From a virus: a stretch of DNA of 51,020 bases. The translations under genes and the position numbers were made by a program. Positions 11,261 to 36,101 of the stretch are shown here, in pieces (position 1 is the stretch's first letter; each line of letters opens with the position of its first letter). Location of the stretch: the IMG/VR virus record IMGVR_UViG_3300030328_001017, positions 1 through 51,020 of that record; one strand, written 5' to 3'. The notes under the pieces were generated by a model that saw only the letters and a list, made by a program, of their open reading frames with translations, was not told the origin of the DNA and did no database searches.

Positions 11261-11303
11261 CACAATAGATGACGAAGACTCGTTCCTCGCTTCGTCTTCA
11301 CTA

Positions 11304-11426
11304 ATGGATACATCCTTAGTAGTCTTGCCAGAGTGGATTAGCCTCAGCCACCAATTCAAACAAACGGCAGGATGTGTCTTCTTCATTGTAGTCTTAGTAA
11401 TGGTCGGACTCACTAAACAGACCTGA
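11304..11426 (+). CDS. Possible single-helix membrane protein, 40 aa
   Basis: MDTSLVVLPEWISLSHQFKQ then a membrane-like stretch CVFFIVVLVMVGL. There is no ribosome site, and the segment just upstream (11271-11296) folds as GACGAAG/CTTCGTC. It may be an unexpressed open frame in an RNA-rich region. Confidence 0.25.
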   Translation: MDTSLVVLPEWISLSHQFKQTAGCVFFIVVLVMVGLTKQT

Positions 11427-11561
11427 CATCCGCGTTGATTCGCACAGTTTAAGATGCCCCGCAAGACGTACGACCCGTTGTGGCGTGAAGGCTAGGCATC
11501 GCTTTGTACTGACCTAGGTAAACGTCAGAAGATCTAAAAGGCCTAGTGGTAGGAACTGACC

Positions 11562-11587
11562 CCTGCCCCACACCTGAGCATGTGTGA
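11562..11587 (+). repeat. 26-nt repeat copy 1
   Basis: Begins CCTGCCCCACACCTGAGCAT and ends GTGTGA. Internally CACAC and GTGTG can pair around an 8-nt loop. Followed 4 nt later by AACTGCTCTCTTCA (11591-11604). Confidence 0.75.
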
Positions 11588-11646
11588 TGTAACTGCTCTC
11601 TTCAGACCTAAAGTCAGAGTTGGTCACTGACATAGAGGTAGGAGCA

Positions 11647-11672
11647 CCTGCCCCACACCTGAGCATGTGTGA
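11647..11672 (+). repeat. 26-nt repeat copy 2
   Basis: Identical to 11562-11587, 85 nt downstream. Followed by AACTGCTTTCTTCA (11679-11692), which recurs at 12269-12282 just after the SSB gene behind a degenerate AGCATG. The unit therefore occurs twice before and once, weakly, after SSB. Confidence 0.75.
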
Positions 11673-11730
11673 CACCCAAACTGCTTTCTTCATCACAATA
11701 TTGTGTAACTTACTTGGAAGGTAACATCCC

Positions 11731-12243
11731 ATGTTAACAGAAGTACGTAATTATAAAATCTCTGACGTAACTATCAATTATCCACGCTTGGATAAGGCAG
11801 TTAATCCCTTTGGCACTGAACAGTATGAGCTACAGATAGCTACTGCTGATGAAGCCAAAGTGAAAGAGTTAGAGGAAAACTATATCAACTTTCGCAGGAA
11901 AGATGGTAAATTAGTTCAGGATGACAAAGGTATGTTCACTGCAAGCCTCAAGCGTAAAGCTAACAAGGCTGATGGAACACCTAATGGTAAAGTTCGTGTC
12001 GTTAAGGCCGATCTTTCGCCTATGGAATCCCTAACTACTATTGGCAATGGTTCTGTAGCTAATGTTATCGTGTTTCAATATCCTTATGACACTATGGGTC
12101 GTAAAGGTGTTGGAAGCTCTTTAACTGCTATCCAGATCACTGATCATATCGTATATGCCCCAACTGGTGGTGTAGACTTTGAAGCAGTAGAATCTGTTGA
12201 GCCACCATTTGAGAAACAGGAAGCACCTAGCGACTTGTTCTAG
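11731..12243 (+). CDS. Single-stranded DNA-binding protein, T7 gp2.5-like
   Basis: 170 residues. The body is a beta-rich OB-type pattern (EVRNYKISDVTINYPRL ... YELQIATADEA ... GKVRVVKADL ... SVANVIVFQYPY ... SSLTAIQITDHIVY). The end is a short acidic tail EPPFEKQEAPSDLF finishing in Phe, the hallmark of gp2.5-type SSBs, whose tail contacts polymerase and helicase-primase. The first 15 residues match no other family I know. A GGAAGG site lies 8 nt upstream. The position between repeats 11562-11692 and 12269 suggests its expression may be controlled by those elements. Fairly sure of the class, not of the subfamily. Confidence 0.7.
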   Translation: MLTEVRNYKISDVTINYPRLDKAVNPFGTEQYELQIATADEAKVKELEENYINFRRKDGKLVQDDKGMFTASLKRKANKADGTPNGKVRVVKADLSPMESLTTIGNGSVANVIVFQYPYDTMGRKGVGSSLTAIQITDHIVYAPTGGVDFEAVESVEPPFEKQEAPSDLF

Positions 12244-13002
12244 CTCATTGTCCTTAGCATGACATAAAACTGCTTTCTTCATACTACGTGCTGCAGAACC
12301 GCTGCAGTTTATCTCTGAAACTCAGGCACAATAGCCTGTCAAAAATGTATTAACGCTACGACTAGCATATTGGAAAAGCAGTCTAGGGGGTCGCTATATT
12401 ACTCTGGTGATGCGGAGTGAGAATTACGCCTCATACATTTAGAACAGAATGAAAAAACGTGGAAGCTCGGTGAGAGCGTAGTATACTTAAAAGAACCCAG
12501 AACACGGTACATTAATTAGTATGGTGGGGCACATCGCAGAGTAAGACTCGGATGTTCAGTGTTGAATACGTCAAGACGGGGAAAGAAGCGTCCCGTAAGC
12601 ACCAAGAAAGAGTGGTGAAACACAAGCTAGTCGTGGTCTAATTACAGATCACGCATCTTCGAATTGCAATGCTGCCTTGCGAGGGTAGTGGTACAGAAAA
12701 ACTGTGCCAAGTGGGACTCTGTAACAAACTAAGCTGGAATGCATCCCGCCACACTGTTACACCCCACCATCGCCCGTTTCAGATAGCGACTCTGTGTGCT
12801 CGGTCTTAGATAACCTTGTAGCACCAGAGGCGCTTGCACATTTTTATTATTGAGTCCCTTCGGGACACTTTAAGTTCGCAGGGCTAAATAGTAGCCCGCC
12901 CTGCTCTTAGCGAGTCCCTGACGGGCACTCGCAGAAAAATAAGGGGAACCGACAAAGCGGATCCCATAGAAAAATCAGAAGCACCGACAAAGTAGGAGTG
13001 CC
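12244..13002 (+). other. 760-nt gene-free stretch in the early operon
   Basis: No open frame longer than a few tens of codons with a ribosome site. It holds the third copy of the 14-nt element (12269-12282), the structured region 12285-12935, and a tail with ACCGACAAAG twice (12948-12957, 12982-12991). In a genome where genes otherwise overlap, such a gap implies function. Confidence 0.8.
12285..12935 (+). ncRNA. Candidate large structured non-coding RNA (about 560-650 nt)
   Basis: Many perfect or near-perfect stems follow one another: CTGCAG pairs 12291/12302; CAGGC/GCCTG 12323-12338; long-range AAATGTAT 12343-12350 with ATACATTT 12433-12440, closing a domain that contains ACTCTG/CGGAGT; GCTC/GAGC 12465-12477; CATC/GATG enclosing GAGT/ACTC 12532-12554; ACGGGG/TCCCGT about 12576; CACCA/TGGTG 12600-12617; CGTGGTCT/AGATCACG 12632-12653; GGTACAG/CTGTGCC 12690-12708; nested GTGGG/CCCAC plus TGTAACA/TGTTACA 12711-12767; nested GCG-CTCTG-GTGCT/AGCAC-CAGAG-CGC 12786-12833; a UUCG hairpin 12854-12866; GCAGGGC/GCCCTGC 12878-12904. 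T-runs at 12841-12845 could end it. Size, phage setting and complexity recall GOLLD/ROOL-class ornate RNAs, but I cannot assign a class. Confidence 0.6.
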
Positions 13003-13215
13003 ATGCAAAAAGAAAATCTTTTTACTAATCCATTTGACCTATTGGACACATTCGAAGCAAAAGTATATTCCCGTTTACTGTCTATCGCTGACTCATACAA
13101 ACAAGTTGCCGACAACAGTAATGATGATATCGATCAAATAATCTTTGAATTTGCTGAAAACAATGCTAGTTCATGGGCAGGACACCATGAGAAAAGGATA
13201 TGGAAATATGTCTAA
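13003..13215 (+). CDS. Hypothetical early protein, 70 aa
   Basis: MQKENLFTNPFDLLDTFEAK; soluble, acidic, helical. GTAGGAG lies 7 nt before the ATG. First gene of the micro-gene cluster (13003-18094), whose members are mostly 25-140 aa, all on the plus strand, with stops overlapping the next start. Confidence 0.65.
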   Translation: MQKENLFTNPFDLLDTFEAKVYSRLLSIADSYKQVADNSNDDIDQIIFEFAENNASSWAGHHEKRIWKYV

Positions 13216-27623: not shown

Positions 27624-27671
27624 ACCCCCTACTAGTTTCCTTAATTGGATTCTAGTAGGGGTATTTTTTTT
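27624..27671. terminator. Bidirectional terminator between convergent operons
   Basis: A 10-11 bp stem (27624-27635 with 27652-27662, arms ACCCCCTACTAG and CTAGTAGGGGT) flanked by an A-run on the left and a T-run of nine on the right, so it works on both strands. It separates the plus-strand replication operon from the minus-strand virion operon. Confidence 0.9.
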
Positions 27672-30600
27672 TAGTGTGAGTAATACTGAAGTATTCTCAA
27701 GTCTGGGTTATCACTATTAAGATTAGCCATAACCTTTTTCTTTAACGCAGATTTTTTCTTTTCAGTATCTCTTATAAGACTAGAAAGATTGTCATTAATC
27801 CCTGCATGTTCTTTAAGAGCTTCTATAAATATCTTAAGATCTCCTACTGTTAGTTGTGTATCAGGTCGGATTACCAAAGGGTGTTTTGTTTCATGGGTTC
27901 CTTCACGAGTAAAACCTTTAAACCCTTTACTTACCATATATCTTTGAAAAGATCTAACAGCAGCAAATGAATCTTCAGGTGGAGGATACATAATCTCTCC
28001 TAGTTTATTATTAAAATTCAAAATCTGCCTTCCACTTTTACTTCTGTAAGTTGAAAACAAATAATCAAGCATAGCTCTATCGTTTCCTATCAATGGTTCA
28101 TTCGGATTTTTAAATCTTTCATTTAAAGATTTTGACAACCGTTCTAAAGCTAGTTGTGCTTGTTTTAAATAAGACCATTGGAAATTAATATCTATCCATG
28201 CTTTGTTTACATTATGTAATACAGCATCATATGAAGCAGCATCCATTTTAAACGCATCGTAAATAGGAAACACATAAGGTTGTTGCTGTGGGTTCTGAGA
28301 TCTAACTTTAATATTTCTCCAATATCCACCCTTATTAGAAGCCAATCTTGCTACTGTTGCAGCATCAATTGACTGGACAGGGATGGGGATTGCAGCACCC
28401 CAGGATGTCCCGCCTACTTCTTCTGTTTGATTACCTGTTACAGGATCAGTTTTAAACTTTGGAGATGCAGACGTAGCTTCTTCACCGTACACCTGTGCTT
28501 TAGGAGAAGCTTTTGCTTGATAAAATGAAGAACCACTATCCCTTACTTCCATAAGAATTCTAGGAAACTCTGTTTTCCAAATGGTATCGTCTTGAGTATG
28601 TGTTATTTCTTTTCCACGAGTTTCTTTTAACGCTGACATAGCATCAGGGTTCTGATCAAAACTTGCTTGTATAAGCTTAGTCATAAGACCAATGCTTATC
28701 TTTTTATTAACAGGAAACTTTCCCTTAATTTTTACACCTTCTTTCCAAGGCTTGTTATAAGTTTCCTCATCAAACTTACCAGACTTAAGGGTTTGATAAG
28801 CATGTTCAACTGTTTGATAAACCCTTCCTTCTTTATCCTTAAAAGGACGAAGAGCAAGGTTACTAAGTCCAGAATTTTCACCAGACCCATACCAAATATT
28901 AAACTTACCTTTTTGATTAACAAAGATCCTATATTGTGTAGCACCTTCCTGAGCACCAGTGGTCATCATACCACCCATGTTAAGCTTGGAACCAGTCGGG
29001 CCATCAATAGTAAACAAACTGTTTGTAACAGCATGTACAAATGAAACACCCCTCATAACATTACGAGACATCATGGTTTCAAAACCCAAGACTTCTCTTA
29101 ATGCGGTATCATAATGAGAATGGATTGCGTCAACTAATTGATCACGAGCAGAATATAATATTTCTTCTTGAGCCTCTTGGATTCTTTTATTGTCTTCATA
29201 GCTTCCAGTAGATGATTCCATCAATGCCAAAAGGTCGGGTTTAGAATCATCAACTTTGGTTTCAAATGCATCCACAAGTATTTTAAATTCTTCTGCTTGA
29301 GCCTTAACCTTTGGGTCAGAACTATTAACATCTACCATTGTTTTTATAATAAACTCTTCGATGTCTTTTTTAAAACCTTCAACATTCTTACCATAACCAA
29401 ATGTCATAGATGTAGTTTTGTTTAGTCCCCTATTTGAATAAACAAACTTTGCTATGTCATACAGTTCAGAGAAATCATCTTTAGAGAATCGTCCAAATTC
29501 TTCCTTTGCCAAAAGAGTTTGTAATGTGTCATCAAGAACATCACGAATATCTTTATTTTCATCAAGAAAGAAATCACTAACTCCGCTACGAAGAACACCT
29601 GTACGATAAGCAATATCTTCAATACCTAGTTGCATTCCATTAGCAGCAAGGCCGTTAGTCTTACCATCTATGTATGCATTAAAGTATGTGTGATATGGTC
29701 TACCTGCATCCATAGCGTCTTTGTAATTAGCGAAATCTACAAGACCATCAATAAAAGCTTGACCATCATCACCTTGCTTTTCAATTTCTTTTATAAGATC
29801 AGCATCAGTATTAGGATCTAATGCTAACGCTGGCATCTGTGGAAAGTTAGGATCTTGCATTGACATACCTGAAGCAATAGCATCGGCTACTTTTTCAACT
29901 TGCTCATTAGAAATTGCTTCCAAAGCAGTCCGAAGTTTTACCCCCTTTTGGTATAATAACGTTTCATTTTTTTGAAGAGCTTTTTCTCTAGCCGAAGGAA
30001 CCAAGGCATCTGCATCCTCAACTAGAGCCTGTGCGTACATCTGTCGGAGTGCTCTCTCAAACCTAGAGCCTTTTACAATTTTTGTAGGGGTAGCACTACG
30101 AGTAACAAATCGAACAGCTTTCTTAGTTGTCGGATCAAAGTTTGTTTGTTGTACAGCAATACGACCTGTTGCTCCTTGAAGATAAAACGTGAGATAGTTT
30201 GCACCCTTACGGTCTAAACAAATACCGTATAGAGATTGAGCCAAATCATTTTCAATTGCATCCATACTGTCTTGCGGATCAGGAATAATCCTATGATTTC
30301 TTGCTTCAGCAATCTTTTCCCTAGCAATAAAGTCATTCATCTTATCTTCACCGATAAAATTAATAGACCTATAAGGGTTAGACGGAGAGCTTAAGGCTAC
30401 TAATGCAGTAGAAAGTAAAATCTTAAGACGCAATGGGTCAACTACATGGGCAACTTGAGAATAGTTTCTCATGGCCTCATTTAATTCTTTAGCATGTACA
30501 CCATCACCCTTAACGTGTACTCTTGCAGTAATATTACGAACAGTTCTTCCTATTTCACCACCTAATCTTCCATCAATTGGTGGTGCTTTTAAAGGACGAA

Positions 30601-31699
30601 CATGTTCTTTAGGAAGAAATTTCTTACGAAGGGTATTACCCTGTCTAAGAAGAGAAGCACCAGTGTCGGTAACTTCAAACATTGCTTGATCACCCTGAGT
30701 GTTATTATCTGGGCTTGTCCTGTTAAGAAAAACATTTTCGCCATACTGTCTATTCATACCGTAATAGTACAACTCTTTTGCCATATCCCCAAGCAAATAT
30801 TCTTCTTCAGGAGTAAGGTCAGTATAAGAATCAGTAGGCTTTTGCTGTTGTTCATTAAGGATTCTTTGGTGTGCTCTGTGTATTTCCCTTCCAAGCCTAC
30901 GGTTTCCATCAGCTTTAGAAAAAGCACCCTCGCCTAATAGCTGATCATCTGTAACTTCATCCATGTTTTCAAATTCATTATCTGGATTTCTACCAAAGAC
31001 AGTTTGAGACAAAGCATCTTCAGTTACATATGTTAAAACCTTAGCAAACAACGGAGTTAGCCTTGGTTTTCTAGGATCATTGGATGCTCTTCCCCCATCA
31101 AGAGCGTTGGTTTTATTTAATAGAGAGTTAACATTACTGTCTTGGGATGCAGCAGCTGTAGTACCTCCAAGGTATACAGTACCTGATTCAACATCTTGGG
31201 CTAGTCTTGCAGCCCTTCCTTCAATATCACCATTTGGCATAGCACTGGAAGAACCAGCAGCATTAGGGTCTCGTGCAGCTTTATTCCATCCCCAATATGT
31301 ACCCGCTTGTGGTTGAGTACCCCTTGATGTTTGAGTCATAGGGGGTATTGTTTCATTAGGATTCGGAGGACCAAACACTTCATCATATTCAGCTATGCTT
31401 TGACCAGTATCGTACTGCGCTTGTGCAGCTTCATCCTGTTGTACATCAACTGCATCGCTTGCAAAGTCATCTAATCTGACAACCGAAGAGTCCACGGCTT
31501 CTGGAGAGTCCTCCACAGGATCTTTTGTAACAGGCGTTACAGGGTCTCCTTGTGGGGTAGTACCCTCAGGATCTTCAGAGGCTGCTGACGAGGCTGTATT
31601 CCCCGCTAACACCTCTTCAAATCCTAAAGCTAACTCTAATTGATCTGAAGGCAGTACGTTACCAGTGTCTAAACCTGATACATTAGACTTACTTGCCAT
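27671..31699 (-). CDS. N4-type virion RNA polymerase with an inserted NADAR (YbiA-like) domain
   Basis: 1342 residues from the ATG at 31699, which has AGGAGAA upstream. Polymerase motifs in order: QGATGRIAV (T/DxxGR element, R513), YIDGKTNGLAANGM (motif A, D678), R757-GLN-K761-TTSMTFG-Y769-G (motif B, the exact Rx3Kx7YG spacing of T7 and N4 enzymes), VQSIDAATVAR (like T7 HSQDGSH) and PIYDAFKMDAAS (motif C, D1148). Between B and C, residues about 925-1053 form a NADAR-family domain: WYGSGENSGLSNLALRPF (936-953), TVEHAYQTLK (963-972) and RGKEITHTQDDTIW ... ILMEVRD. The B-to-C distance is 387 residues, against 181 in T7. The N-terminal about 250 residues are Pro/Thr/Asp-rich. It lies in the virion operon, so it would be injected and transcribe early genes. 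Confidence 0.85.
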   Translation of the reverse strand: MASKSNVSGLDTGNVLPSDQLELALGFEEVLAGNTASSAASEDPEGTTPQGDPVTPVTKDPVEDSPEAVDSSVVRLDDFASDAVDVQQDEAAQAQYDTGQSIAEYDEVFGPPNPNETIPPMTQTSRGTQPQAGTYWGWNKAARDPNAAGSSSAMPNGDIEGRAARLAQDVESGTVYLGGTTAAASQDSNVNSLLNKTNALDGGRASNDPRKPRLTPLFAKVLTYVTEDALSQTVFGRNPDNEFENMDEVTDDQLLGEGAFSKADGNRRLGREIHRAHQRILNEQQQKPTDSYTDLTPEEEYLLGDMAKELYYYGMNRQYGENVFLNRTSPDNNTQGDQAMFEVTDTGASLLRQGNTLRKKFLPKEHVRPLKAPPIDGRLGGEIGRTVRNITARVHVKGDGVHAKELNEAMRNYSQVAHVVDPLRLKILLSTALVALSSPSNPYRSINFIGEDKMNDFIAREKIAEARNHRIIPDPQDSMDAIENDLAQSLYGICLDRKGANYLTFYLQGATGRIAVQQTNFDPTTKKAVRFVTRSATPTKIVKGSRFERALRQMYAQALVEDADALVPSAREKALQKNETLLYQKGVKLRTALEAISNEQVEKVADAIASGMSMQDPNFPQMPALALDPNTDADLIKEIEKQGDDGQAFIDGLVDFANYKDAMDAGRPYHTYFNAYIDGKTNGLAANGMQLGIEDIAYRTGVLRSGVSDFFLDENKDIRDVLDDTLQTLLAKEEFGRFSKDDFSELYDIAKFVYSNRGLNKTTSMTFGYGKNVEGFKKDIEEFIIKTMVDVNSSDPKVKAQAEEFKILVDAFETKVDDSKPDLLALMESSTGSYEDNKRIQEAQEEILYSARDQLVDAIHSHYDTALREVLGFETMMSRNVMRGVSFVHAVTNSLFTIDGPTGSKLNMGGMMTTGAQEGATQYRIFVNQKGKFNIWYGSGENSGLSNLALRPFKDKEGRVYQTVEHAYQTLKSGKFDEETYNKPWKEGVKIKGKFPVNKKISIGLMTKLIQASFDQNPDAMSALKETRGKEITHTQDDTIWKTEFPRILMEVRDSGSSFYQAKASPKAQVYGEEATSASPKFKTDPVTGNQTEEVGGTSWGAAIPIPVQSIDAATVARLASNKGGYWRNIKVRSQNPQQQPYVFPIYDAFKMDAASYDAVLHNVNKAWIDINFQWSYLKQAQLALERLSKSLNERFKNPNEPLIGNDRAMLDYLFSTYRSKSGRQILNFNNKLGEIMYPPPEDSFAAVRSFQRYMVSKGFKGFTREGTHETKHPLVIRPDTQLTVGDLKIFIEALKEHAGINDNLSSLIRDTEKKKSALKKKVMANLNSDNPDLRILQYYSH
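28540..28930 (-). other. NADAR domain within the virion RNA polymerase
   Basis: Residues about 925-1053. The pattern S-N-x-A-x3-PF, then EHAYQ, a helix with ISIGLMTKLIQASFDQNP, then ...TRGKEITHTQDDTIW and LMEVRD, aligns over its length with E. coli YbiA. NADAR proteins bind ADP-ribose derivatives, and members have been reported to hydrolyse ADP-ribosyl-guanine and act as DarT1 antitoxins. The conserved Glu965/His966 pair is present. Activity in this setting is inferred. Confidence 0.8.
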
Positions 31700-31700
31700 A

Positions 31701-34700
31701 TTATTCTCCTTTATAATTCCAAGATTCTGGTATGAAATCTCCAACCCTTGAGAATCCACCAGTAACACCAAGGGCAGGTATCAACCTACTACCTTCTTGT
31801 GCACCACCAGCAAAGTCTCCTGTTGCTGTTTTACCCATTGCTCTACCAATACGTTTTAGTGTACCAGTAGCGGGTGCTTCACCTGTTGTCGTATTCCATA
31901 TCCATTCTCCAGCATTACCAGAACGTTGTTCATATATGGGGAAGAACTGATCAAGCACACGCTCACCAACACCAAGTAAACCTGATGATCGTATACCACG
32001 TTGGATATACTCTTCGGTTTCTAGGTGTGGGTTCTTACCTGTCTTGTACTCATCTTCGTCTAACCCACCATACTTAATAAGATCCTTTAGATACTGAGAG
32101 GCAAAGCCCATCATTATCATAGTACACATTAGAGCAAATGCATTGTACTTCATTGATGGAGTACCACGTTTGACATATTCACCCCATAGTTTAGGGATAT
32201 GGTTTGCTGTGAATGTTGCAATGAATCCTTGAAACTGTGTGAACAAGAAGAACCTTGGGTCTTGATAAATCAATGGCCTGTTGGCTATTCCTGGTAGTGC
32301 TACAGCATCATCGATAAAATTCATAGAGCCTATTCTTAAGTTGCTCATCATTAAATCTTCATCAGCTTTTATTTGTGCATCTGTTCTCTCATCAATACCA
32401 GTAGCTTCTCTGTTTCTAGATTCTATTTGTATCCTTACTGCGTCATCGACATTTATTCCAATGTTTCGTAAGGCTTCTTCTGATTCTTGAACCTCATTAG
32501 TTTTAGGATCACCACTTGTTCTTTGGTCAGTAACAATATTAATATGATCGAAAATATAATCAGCTGATATTGATGCTCTCATAGATCTGGTCATGTTAGT
32601 AAAACCAGTTAGCCCAGTAGCCTTAAAGAATATTTCATAGAACCTTTGATGTGATGGGTTCATTTCTGAAACACCAGTAACTGTAGCAGCACCTAGTTCC
32701 CATGCATCATATCCTAATTCTTTTCTCCAAGCTTGACCCCTAGATCTACTTGCTATAGGTAAACCTGTAGAAGGATCTATATTTCCTAGCTTCTCTTCTC
32801 TACGTGTTATAACAGAACCAGTTTCTTTTATACCAGAACTTATAGCCTTAGCTAGTTCTTGACCAAAGGATTGAAGACTTGTTTTATCAGAATCTTTTCC
32901 TTTCCTTTTAAAGATTTGTTCTGCAGTTAAAGCACGAGAAGACAATGCAAGTTCTGGAAGAGATGACACAGCAGCCATGCCTAGTGTTCCAATAGTTGTA
33001 AGGAACATAAGGTTTTTCTGGATACCCATAAGCATCTTACCCATGTCGGATGTCGGACGTTTATAGTTTCCAGATTCAGCATTAAGATAGTTTCTTAAAC
33101 CAACAGCAATTTTATTTACTTCTTCTGCAGGTACACCTTCAGCTTGCATCTTGTCTAAATAGTAAGCAATTATCTCACCATTCTTACCAATGTAATCTCT
33201 ATGTGCTGTAAACCTAGCAGCAGATTTAATAGAGTGTTGTATGTTCTTATAGATATCCCGCTGCATAAACTTTTCAAATACAAATTTACCATCAGCGCCT
33301 TTCTTTTCAGACATCCCAAGAGTGTTGGCTCTGTGAGATCCAGGAACAATACCACCTTTGGTGACATCAAACCCAGTGTTTAAATCAACACCAACAGCTG
33401 CTCCTGCTTCTTCTATATCGCTAATAGTATCCGAATATAATATCTGATCAACCAATTGTTTAGCAATTGATGGAGTAATTTTTGGATAGGTAGCAACTAA
33501 CAAAGCCTCAAACTCATTACGGTTTTTTTGAACAGCAACTTTATCTAGAGTCTTATATCTATGAAGGTAGTTTTTACGTTTTCCAAGATCTCCACCAGCT
33601 TTTACTTGATCGTTATACATAGCATCTGCTGTTTGATTCATTTGTACAGCAAGTGCTTTTATAGCATCAGCTTGTAATTTATTAAGACTTGTTGTATCTA
33701 AAAGATTAGGATCATAATTACCATCACTATCTACGGCTGCTTGAAGTCGTTTATAAATATCATCACTAAGAGTATCTATTTCCTTTTGACTTAACACTCT
33801 ACCATTTCCCATGATGTTATAAAAATCATCAGGGTTTTGTAACATGTTCCTGTATATAGAAACACGATCACGTTTAGCCATTTCAAAATCAGCACCGCTA
33901 AATACTTTTTGAAGACCACCACCAAGACTTGCTGCTAGCTTTCTAGCTGATGAAGACATCCTCTTAACTTCAGCAGGTATTATATAATCGATAGATCTTC
34001 TCCAAAGGGCTGGAGCAGACGCAAACATGTCACCAATTGTCTCACCAATGGTTCTATCCTTGAGTCTCTTTTTATCTGCTTCTCCTCTTAAGTCAATATC
34101 TGTCGGAGCAAAGTTTGTATTTTGTTTCTTTTTTTCATCTAATTCTTTTTTAATCTCTGCAATGTTTTCTTCATTAGATGTTACACGAGAGTTTGCAGGG
34201 TCTGATCTTGCTTTTTCACCTGCTTCTTTAGCAATCCTATCTATGTCTTGTGCTATATAATAGTCTAAACTTCCAGCAATAAACCTATTAGGACTAGATG
34301 GATCATACCCTTCATCTTTAGCTCTTCTATATTCTTCTGCACCTTTGGCCTTTTTATAAGCTTTATTATAAGCTATCTGACCGTTCCGAGTACGCTCTGC
34401 TTCAGCTTGTGCTCCCTCTTCAGAAAGACGTTTAGCTTCTGCAGGTAACTGACGTACTGCTACATCAGCCCAAGCACCAGCATTAACTGCTGCCCCAGGA
34501 ACTGCAAAGGTAGTACCTAAAGCAGTACCAGCTACTGCAGCCTGAACAATCCGATTGTTAAGTTCGTTATAGTCAAAGACCTTATCAGAACCAAGGGTTG
34601 CTCCGAGGTATGCAGTGGCTTCTTGCATAGCTTCTGTTGAACCCTCACCAACACCACCGATTAACCCTCGTGTTGCAAGGTCCCTAAAGATAGCCTTGGC

Positions 34701-36101
34701 TGTGATCTGTTGACGAGCTACCTTAGCTGCATCACCAGAAAGTTTTGCTAACTCTTTACGTGTTGCTGTAAGAAGTAATTTTTCAGCAACTTCTTTACTT
34801 AATCCTTTTCCTCCTTTTGCAACGTCAGCAGTCATCTTTTTAAGGGCTTGAGTGTACATAGACTTAGGTGTAATGCCTCGTTTAAATATAAGATTAATAC
34901 CAATCCTATCTAAAACAGCTTGAATTGTACCTGCTGCAATTGCAACAGTTGCACTTTTATTATCACCCTCCATCTCTGCCCATGTGTTTCCAGTATACAT
35001 AGACACGGGTAAAAGAATACTAGCACCTCCAGTAACCCCTGAAAGCAAAGCAGCACCACCAGATGCAGCCATGTATGGTATGGACATTGCAGCGTTGGTT
35101 CCTAAGAACTCAACGGCTGTTAGGAATCCATCTACATCTTTGTAGTCTGTAATGATCTTTCCGTTCTCACCCATACGGGTACGAGCACGTTCCATACCTG
35201 CTTCACCAAAGTCTTCTGCAGCTTCCCAATCTAATTTTTCTCCAAGCATATCTGCAAGAGCATAAGCGGATTGAGCCACACTGTTCCATCCAGTTTCCCA
35301 AGCAACAGTCATAGGATTATTAGCACGACCAGACACATCATCCCTATCAAAATAATCAATATCTGGTCTAGCATTTTTATCAATAGCATCTCTTTGTTGC
35401 TTAAGCATATGGAGGCCCACAAGATCTTGATCTGTAGGCTGTTCTCCATTCTCTCTCATTTCAGCTAGGCCATCTTCGACTGTTTTAATTTGTTCATCAA
35501 GCATACCGATCTCGCCAGAGAATCTTTGTGCTCTTTTAAACTGTTGGGCAAACCTTTGCTCTTCTCTGATACCTTCTTGTATCATCATACGAGCTTTATC
35601 AAATGCGCCAGGTTGGTAATCAGCAGAAGTTTGATCTGCTCTAGGACCTCTTAAAAATTCTTGATAATTCCTAGACCCCCGTAGTACATTACCAGGGTCA
35701 AACCCATTAGCAATATCTACGACACCATTAATAGCAAGCTCACGAGAAAAAGATTTACCAGTTTCTGGATGAACAAGATCACCCATTTGACGAGTTCCAG
35801 TAGCATCCATTTCTGGAGTACCATCTGGGTTCCATCGTCTACGAATTTCAGTATATCCAAGTTGGTTAGCCAAAGCTTGAACTTGTTCAGAAGTTTGAGT
35901 AGCTCCCACTTCTTGTGAGGCTTTTAAACCTTGCCATGATTTGTAAGTCTCAGGGGCATCAATACCCCCAAGACGTACATCTAAGTCGTTACCTTCTTCA
36001 CGGACAGTATCTGCATCCAAAAATGTAGTTTTATTTTTAGCACCTTTTAATTGGTTTGCTTCACCACTAAGGATGTTACTATAATCCGACACATCAAGCA
36101 T
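31701..36101 (-). CDS. Giant ejection (internal virion) protein with N-terminal staphylococcal-nuclease-like domain
   Basis: 1466 residues, close in size and place to T7 gp16 (1318). The N-terminal 150 residues look like an SNase (TNase) fold: FLDADTV (D29, D31), VRLGGIDAPET (R43, D48, E51), matching the Ca-binding and catalytic positions of the family. The middle contains long Ala/Gly-rich hydrophobic stretches (about 350-400 and 500-560) suited to membrane crossing. After a charged linker (about 600-690) come helical parts and a further hydrophobic part around 1060-1090. Such proteins are ejected into the periplasm to build the DNA conduit. A nuclease could clear host DNA or RNA at the entry site. 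AAGGAG precedes the ATG. Confidence 0.75.
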   Translation of the reverse strand: MLDVSDYSNILSGEANQLKGAKNKTTFLDADTVREEGNDLDVRLGGIDAPETYKSWQGLKASQEVGATQTSEQVQALANQLGYTEIRRRWNPDGTPEMDATGTRQMGDLVHPETGKSFSRELAINGVVDIANGFDPGNVLRGSRNYQEFLRGPRADQTSADYQPGAFDKARMMIQEGIREEQRFAQQFKRAQRFSGEIGMLDEQIKTVEDGLAEMRENGEQPTDQDLVGLHMLKQQRDAIDKNARPDIDYFDRDDVSGRANNPMTVAWETGWNSVAQSAYALADMLGEKLDWEAAEDFGEAGMERARTRMGENGKIITDYKDVDGFLTAVEFLGTNAAMSIPYMAASGGAALLSGVTGGASILLPVSMYTGNTWAEMEGDNKSATVAIAAGTIQAVLDRIGINLIFKRGITPKSMYTQALKKMTADVAKGGKGLSKEVAEKLLLTATRKELAKLSGDAAKVARQQITAKAIFRDLATRGLIGGVGEGSTEAMQEATAYLGATLGSDKVFDYNELNNRIVQAAVAGTALGTTFAVPGAAVNAGAWADVAVRQLPAEAKRLSEEGAQAEAERTRNGQIAYNKAYKKAKGAEEYRRAKDEGYDPSSPNRFIAGSLDYYIAQDIDRIAKEAGEKARSDPANSRVTSNEENIAEIKKELDEKKKQNTNFAPTDIDLRGEADKKRLKDRTIGETIGDMFASAPALWRRSIDYIIPAEVKRMSSSARKLAASLGGGLQKVFSGADFEMAKRDRVSIYRNMLQNPDDFYNIMGNGRVLSQKEIDTLSDDIYKRLQAAVDSDGNYDPNLLDTTSLNKLQADAIKALAVQMNQTADAMYNDQVKAGGDLGKRKNYLHRYKTLDKVAVQKNRNEFEALLVATYPKITPSIAKQLVDQILYSDTISDIEEAGAAVGVDLNTGFDVTKGGIVPGSHRANTLGMSEKKGADGKFVFEKFMQRDIYKNIQHSIKSAARFTAHRDYIGKNGEIIAYYLDKMQAEGVPAEEVNKIAVGLRNYLNAESGNYKRPTSDMGKMLMGIQKNLMFLTTIGTLGMAAVSSLPELALSSRALTAEQIFKRKGKDSDKTSLQSFGQELAKAISSGIKETGSVITRREEKLGNIDPSTGLPIASRSRGQAWRKELGYDAWELGAATVTGVSEMNPSHQRFYEIFFKATGLTGFTNMTRSMRASISADYIFDHINIVTDQRTSGDPKTNEVQESEEALRNIGINVDDAVRIQIESRNREATGIDERTDAQIKADEDLMMSNLRIGSMNFIDDAVALPGIANRPLIYQDPRFFLFTQFQGFIATFTANHIPKLWGEYVKRGTPSMKYNAFALMCTMIMMGFASQYLKDLIKYGGLDEDEYKTGKNPHLETEEYIQRGIRSSGLLGVGERVLDQFFPIYEQRSGNAGEWIWNTTTGEAPATGTLKRIGRAMGKTATGDFAGGAQEGSRLIPALGVTGGFSRVGDFIPESWNYKGE

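Follow-up and report, generated by a model that had tools for sequence, protein, structure and literature searches.

What kind of element fills 759 nt of phage DNA in which no plausible gene can be found, and is it one large RNA or several? The question comes from a marine phage record of 51,020 nt (IMGVR_UViG_3300030328_001017), the whole of which is called the window here, where the gene encoding a gp2.5-like single-stranded DNA-binding protein (SSB) stops at 12243 and 13003 is the first base of the next plausible gene. A sequence-only reading of this DNA had noticed a gap of about 760 nt directly 3' of SSB, which is borne out (12244-13002, non-coding), and had placed in it a candidate large ornate RNA with a helix density like that of GOLLD or ROOL. 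The phage is related to Roseobacter phage CRP-7, its closest cultured relative by terminase and SSB (TerL 61% and SSB 36% identical) and a podovirus encoding its own RNA polymerase (PMC6918029). The window likewise encodes a single-subunit RNA polymerase, together with a family A DNA polymerase and a primase-helicase; CRP-7, however, has no gap after SSB, its gp20 starting at the last base of gp19, and does not carry module C/D of Table 1. Searching the 51-kb window for tRNA and tmRNA genes returned none. Two very large late genes lie on its minus strand (31701-36101, 1466 aa, and 27671-31771, about 1366 aa), and its cumulative GC skew has a local minimum at about 11-12 kb, where the coding strand switches, a possible origin region.

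A coding explanation for the gap can be rejected. Its sole plus-strand ORF of at least 40 aa (12669-12809, 46 aa) is not conserved, since it spans modules with 8- and 37-nt indels in homologues, and a conserved protein frame, which the sequence-only reading had said would speak against an RNA, was looked for in the homologues of the gap without success, indels within the modules excluding one. What lies there is a row of structured modules, and the row does not keep to 12285-12935, the extent first claimed, but runs past these coordinates to the other side of SSB. The upstream part holds modules u, v and x and two copies of a small pseudoknot, here called R, all common to other contigs; its whole-stretch minimum free energy (MFE) is not special (z -0.45), so its case is made by module sharing and exchange plus R and not by MFE.

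Table 1. Features on either side of SSB in the window, with the basis or distribution of each.
Feature	Positions	Strand	Basis or distribution
Upstream array: non-coding modules between the preceding small ORF and SSB	11261-11730 (last R ends 11692)	+	no plausible gene
Module u: closing stem GGATACATCC...GGATGTGTC, then TTCTTCA	11306-11385	+	nhmmer, 14 matches, all SSB-clade contigs
Module v	11390-11503	+	common to L014 only
Module x	11507-11568	+	common to L104, L106, L110, L017
R copy 1: pseudoknot CACAC-CTGAGCAT-GTGTG-ATGTAAC-TGCT, end CTCTTCA	11569-11604	+	descriptor scans
R copy 2: pseudoknot, end CTTTCTTCA	11654-11692	+	descriptor scans
gp2.5-like SSB gene	11731-12243	+	PHROG 112, E 4e-13
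R copy 3: pseudoknot TGTC-CTTAGCAT-GACA-TAAAAC-TGCT, end CTTTCTTCA	12249-12281	+	descriptor scans, R covariation
Module A: closing helix 12281-12288 / 12477-12484; long-range helix 12343-12350 / 12433-12440	12281-12489	+	16 contigs
Module B: closing pairing AAGA (12491-12494) / UCUU (12656-12659); hairpins; conserved loop TCTAATTACAGA	12490-12661	+	28 contigs
Module C: three hairpins, outer helix 12711-12715 / 12763-12767	12662-12784	+	19 contigs, compensatory changes
Module D: long imperfect hairpin	12785-12838	+	25 contigs
Module E: three hairpins (12853-12867, 12878-12903, about 12909-12933)	12839-12935	+	16 contigs
Leader of the next gene: repeat AGAAAAATNAG..ACCGACAAAG (direct repeat D3)	12936-13002	+	conserved GAACCGACAA before the next gene in relatives

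The same region recurs in about 27 further viral IMG/VR contigs, found by SSB and short RNA patterns, and the order of the units was read in 29 contigs or records, the window included. The window runs u v x R R SSB R A B C D E, while its relatives read u SSB R A R B C D E (L002), u SSB R g B C D E f (L010), SSB R h g B C D e f (L015), u SSB R g B i C D e f (L021), u SSB A B j D E f (L107), SSB R w g B j D e f (L109) and w SSB R A B C D E f (L007); seven more (L013, L018, L019, L020, L022, L023 and L108) have A+B upstream of SSB and no C, in the order u A B SSB R D E. Thus A+B and w are found on either side of SSB among the 29 records, module A is absent in some contigs with g in its place, C is missing or swapped for j, E is replaced by e, and h and i turn up as additional modules between units. 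Because units are gained, lost, replaced and moved separately among relatives, 12244-13002 is to be read as an array of independent modules. The joints are also shared: nearly every A, B, C, g and h, and nearly every SSB leader, has a linker C[A/U]UCA (C[A/T]TCA in DNA) within the 9 nt that precede it, the base rate of C[AT]TCA being 1.9%, with module D the exception, preceded by TTTC or other sequence. In L002, ACTTCA and AAAGAACCC exactly bound an additional unit that carries R, and SSB with its leader and R behaves as a further unit, flanked by joints of the same type. An apparent insert in the SSB gene of L049 (3001-3605) was rejected as a module; it is a 98-bp tandem duplication within the gene, probably an assembly error.

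Do these units fold as RNA? Modules B, C and D are 78-98% identical to the window (D alone 92-98%) and A 76-94%, set against 47-73% at four-fold degenerate sites of SSB, and recent exchange rather than selection may explain part of this high identity. Matches to A-E are limited to contigs with an SSB that is at least about 75% identical; neither the module-B covariance model nor pattern scans found A-E in more distant relatives, that model matching, over 87 loci, the window and L109 and nothing outside the clade. A BLASTN comparison of the region with 50,697 phage records gave no match, and a scan for the module-B loop in 84,980 bacterial and archaeal genomes gave three (Chlorobi/Bacteroidota), judged to be chance because about that number is estimated for 20 fixed bases with a variable gap. 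The pattern of module u was seen, in an IMG/VR scan, in 13 contigs, every one of the SSB clade.

The real evidence for RNA structure is the compensatory change seen when homologous sequences are aligned, a check that the sequence-only reading had itself proposed and that comes out positive for helices of A, B, C and C+D. An alignment of 18 module-B sequences has 35 consensus pairs with 99.4% of cells paired, and seven pairs are changed on both sides, in 19 cells, a count as high being reached by none of 500 shuffles; sliding the partners by 1-3 columns as a control gave nothing comparable. For C+D, three pairs are changed on both sides (reached by 5 of 500 shuffles), and the closing pair of module A goes from UA to CG in three of nine sequences. 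The 8-bp long-range pairing that the sequence-only reading had picked out in module A is exact, AAATGTAT with ATACATTT, and covaries as well, with UGUAU/AUACA in three contigs and UGUGU/ACACA in 13 (n=16; A-U to G-C). Folding also recovers the nested hairpins proposed at 12711-12767 and 12786-12833, the outer helix of the former changing from GUGGG/CCCAC to GUGAG/CUCAC, and of the UUCG-like loops and T-runs a UUC-capped hairpin and a T-run after 12840 are present. The cells of variable pairs include 62 G.U and no A.C, which favours a plus-strand RNA as support and not as proof, since the structures come partly from RNA folding, which leans to G.U. Folding energy is low for 12285-12935 (z = -4.3, 60 shuffles), for the whole gap (z = -3.0, 20 shuffles) and for module E (z -3.75, 0 of 100 shuffles), but it is not used as proof, because the reverse strand (z = -2.6) and one neighbouring coding stretch (z -3.7) score low too. 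At the level of sequence comparison, then, the array is non-coding, conserved, covarying, modular and exchanged at common joints.

The unit that travels furthest is R, an H-type pseudoknot of about 30 nt in which a stem of 4-7 bp closed by C-G carries the loop CUNAGCAU, followed by an A-rich linker of 4-13 nt and the tail ACUGCU, whose UGCU pairs with AGCA of the loop. In the window, the tail UGCUC of copy 1 pairs with loop GAGCA, the tail TGCT of copy 2 ends 45 nt upstream of the SSB start codon (ATG), and copy 3 begins 5 nt past the SSB stop codon. Variants elsewhere keep the loop-tail pairing (GGCA/UGCC, AGUA/UACU and also TGCTT with TAAGCA), and the next pair of the pseudoknot, which the search did not require, is GC in 152, AU in 15 and GU in 7 of 182. 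Over the stem and pseudoknot of 40 diverse copies, 95% of cells are paired and 79 cells, at 7 pairs, are changed on both sides, against 25 cells in shuffles, none of 500 of which reached 79. Among 54 distant loci selected by SSB alone, all 37 copies of R are on the gene strand, and at 12 of the 54 R ends 42-53 nt before the start of the SSB match. A pattern scan of IMG/VR matched at least 120 stretches, with the stem present at 62 of the 89 sites inspected among the matches listed, and R occurs in GenBank phages of Paracoccus, Lentibacter, Celeribacter, Synechococcus, Mycobacterium and Erwinia as well as in Roseobacter SIO1. The structure, spread and strand-specificity of R are established by the same kind of comparison. 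Commonly it stands 4-9 nt past a stop codon, and it is no exclusive companion of SSB, since it follows or precedes many unrelated genes; many contigs in the clade of the window itself lack a copy upstream of SSB.

Where R has been found, in IMG/VR (L135-L254) and GenBank (L130-L133, L255-L261) and across many host phyla, several settings deserve record. Up to seven copies lie within 9 kb of L248; R stands directly before a tRNA-Asp(GTC) gene in L137, L143, L144, L159, L207 and L208; in the loci checked for this, it follows or flanks a gene of about 340 aa starting MAHDLETQNG (L137 and L207, and the same gene in L177, L244 and L248); and in the cobaviruses P12053L, ICBM1, ICBM2 and SIO1 (L130-L133) it lies between the genes for B12-dependent ribonucleotide reductase and glutaredoxin. 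Two R copies, one of them GGCA/UGCC, belong to a different multi-hairpin leader that precedes a SLOG/DUF2493-like gene (L072, about 370-810; L073, about 270-660) and may be another RNA array, and in Erwinia phage Berlingot (L258, 910-2428) 1.5 kb without annotated genes, holding R and stretches resembling pieces of tRNA, may be a further large non-coding RNA region. Hairpins that have the loop but lack the tail, most of them on the opposite strand, were discounted as coincidences of coding sequence. The spacing of 4-9 nt is suggestive of a signal for stop-codon read-through or frameshifting, but this reading was set aside, since an extension is impossible at several sites, where tRNA-Asp directly follows.

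The sequence-only reading had left its RNA without a known class, and an Rfam scan agrees: no Rfam 15 family reached its gathering threshold anywhere in the window, relaxing to E up to 10 over 12000-13200 brought up nothing credible, and nothing matched on R itself at E up to 5 in eight loci, some with 4-5 copies. A literature search, with subscription papers and preprints largely outside its scope, turned up no account of R or of any array like this one.

What might such an array do? The reading that I favour, at a probability of roughly 0.4, is that it is a set of structured RNA modules transcribed on the plus strand and acting mainly in cis on the early transcript led by SSB; transcription of the array, cis action and SSB as ligand are what I infer here. 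On this account the modules would be leader, intercistronic and trailer segments of that plus-strand transcript, each folding alone and most ending in a C[A/U]UCA linker, that are swapped and moved between phages as units and may tune the stability, processing or translation of the SSB-proximal mRNA, with the linkers serving as spacers, cutting sites or exchange points. R, with one copy past the SSB stop codon and two ahead of the gene, would be an element facing a protein or the ribosome and acting in cis at the ends of cistrons, on stability, translation or the polymerase. Binding of R by the phage SSB is the first hypothesis to consider by analogy with T4, because in distant relatives R stands about 40 nt before the SSB start, as does the gene 32 operator, a pseudoknot of about 28 nt followed by more than 40 nt of less structured RNA (PMC535899). 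In about 12 distant relatives the likeness to the T4/RB69 operator extends to the whole arrangement: an H-type pseudoknot of about 28-30 nt, then about 40 nt with little structure, then the ribosome-binding site of the SSB gene. The R core, CUNAGCAU/ACUGCU, nevertheless differs, the SSB here is gp2.5-like and not gp32, and R is multi-copy, standing after SSB and other genes; since upstream R, optional in the window's clade, is absent in many contigs there, autoregulation of SSB through R cannot be general in that clade. Against a pure SSB operator also counts that R comes after many unrelated genes and, in several phages, before tRNA-Asp.

The favoured cis-acting array has to be weighed against the single object first proposed, a giant ornate RNA of the GOLLD, ROOL or OLE kind in which A-E form one fold or a multimeric cage. 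Like those RNAs the array is phage-borne, several hundred nt long and made of many helices, and the lack of an Rfam match would make a new class possible, yet this is very improbable: where a continuous RNA would hold its 5' and 3' parts together, the modules here occur apart, A+B standing upstream of SSB away from D/E and without C, with A, C and E absent or replaced elsewhere and a common linker joining independent, exchangeable units. ROOL and GOLLD are moreover usually found near tRNA islands (PMC12286853), whereas the window has neither island nor tRNA. The original observation is real and unmatched, and its dense, conserved, covarying and non-coding character stands; what gives way is the notion of one RNA, in place of which there is an array of interchangeable RNA cassettes. 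The independence that counts against a giant RNA, with units folding, appearing and vanishing on their own, sharing a linker at their ends and keeping to no order, would also suit a precursor cut at the C[A/U]UCA linkers into small RNAs that act in trans as decoys or regulators. Phage tRNA arrays are a precedent for arrays of processed RNA units, and they too consist of independently folding units gained, lost and moved singly, although the units here are not tRNAs and present several unrelated folds on a common linker. I hold this to be rather unlikely, as no processing enzyme, promoter or terminator has been identified for the units (a promoter scan gave chance level) and the array adjoins SSB in every contig, which suggests cis action.

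For R in particular, a site that modifies RNA polymerase comes to mind, of the nut, put or rrn boxB-boxA type, with R and its TGCTCT tail letting the polymerase pass intercistronic regions. Short RNA structures in untranslated parts of early transcripts are what rrn and lambda boxB-boxA (nut) and HK022 put have in common with R, whose hairpin is followed by TGCTCT, a TGCTCTC-type tail that recalls boxA, and R does lie in untranslated gaps, on the gene strand, in several copies per operon and in phages of unrelated hosts. Antitermination is nonetheless improbable: the tail is conserved as the partner of R's own hairpin loop and co-varies with it (TGCC with GGCA, TGCTT with TAAGCA), whereas boxA, which has to be free for NusB/S10 binding beside a boxB hairpin, needs no partner; position and copy number differ, R often standing just past genes and not at operon starts; and no N- or Q-like protein, nor any antitermination protein, is known here. 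Quite improbable, too, is an origin of the pattern in DNA, whether a replication origin, single-strand hairpins or elements mobilised by a CTTCA-targeting transposase or recombinase, with RNA structure as a by-product. The adjoining SSB gene and the GC-skew minimum near 11-12 kb would fit, as would the L002 insertion with CTTCA on both sides, the single orientation of all units and the short fixed junction C[AT]TCA, of the kind beside which IS200/IS605-type MITEs would insert; but the ratio of 62 G.U to 0 A.C at variable pairs favours RNA, the skew change coincides with the coding-strand switch, units u and B are found only beside SSB in the window clade, and no recombinase or transposase is among the window genes annotated so far, in an annotation that is incomplete.

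The whole is a new variation on phage-borne structured non-coding RNA, and R is a new and widespread phage pseudoknot. One may go further, tentatively and with more doubt than belief, and see an RNA-domain cassette system in which units are inserted, removed and reordered around SSB at a fixed C[A/U]UCA joint, much as in integrons, with SSB plus R itself a cassette and R a very widespread, undescribed class of regulatory pseudoknot working in phages of several bacterial phyla; whether such cassettes deserve a category to themselves turns on how the joints work. If this is right, a long non-coding region evolves in a phage lineage through the reshuffling of RNA domains that already exist, a natural combinatorial experiment on the role of each domain. 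The role of R past stop codons is testable now, as it is simple (about 30 nt) and strongly covarying and is carried by phages in culture, namely those of Paracoccus, Lentibacter, Synechococcus and Mycobacterium, and a general phage control element common to host phyla would, if confirmed, close a real gap in annotation.
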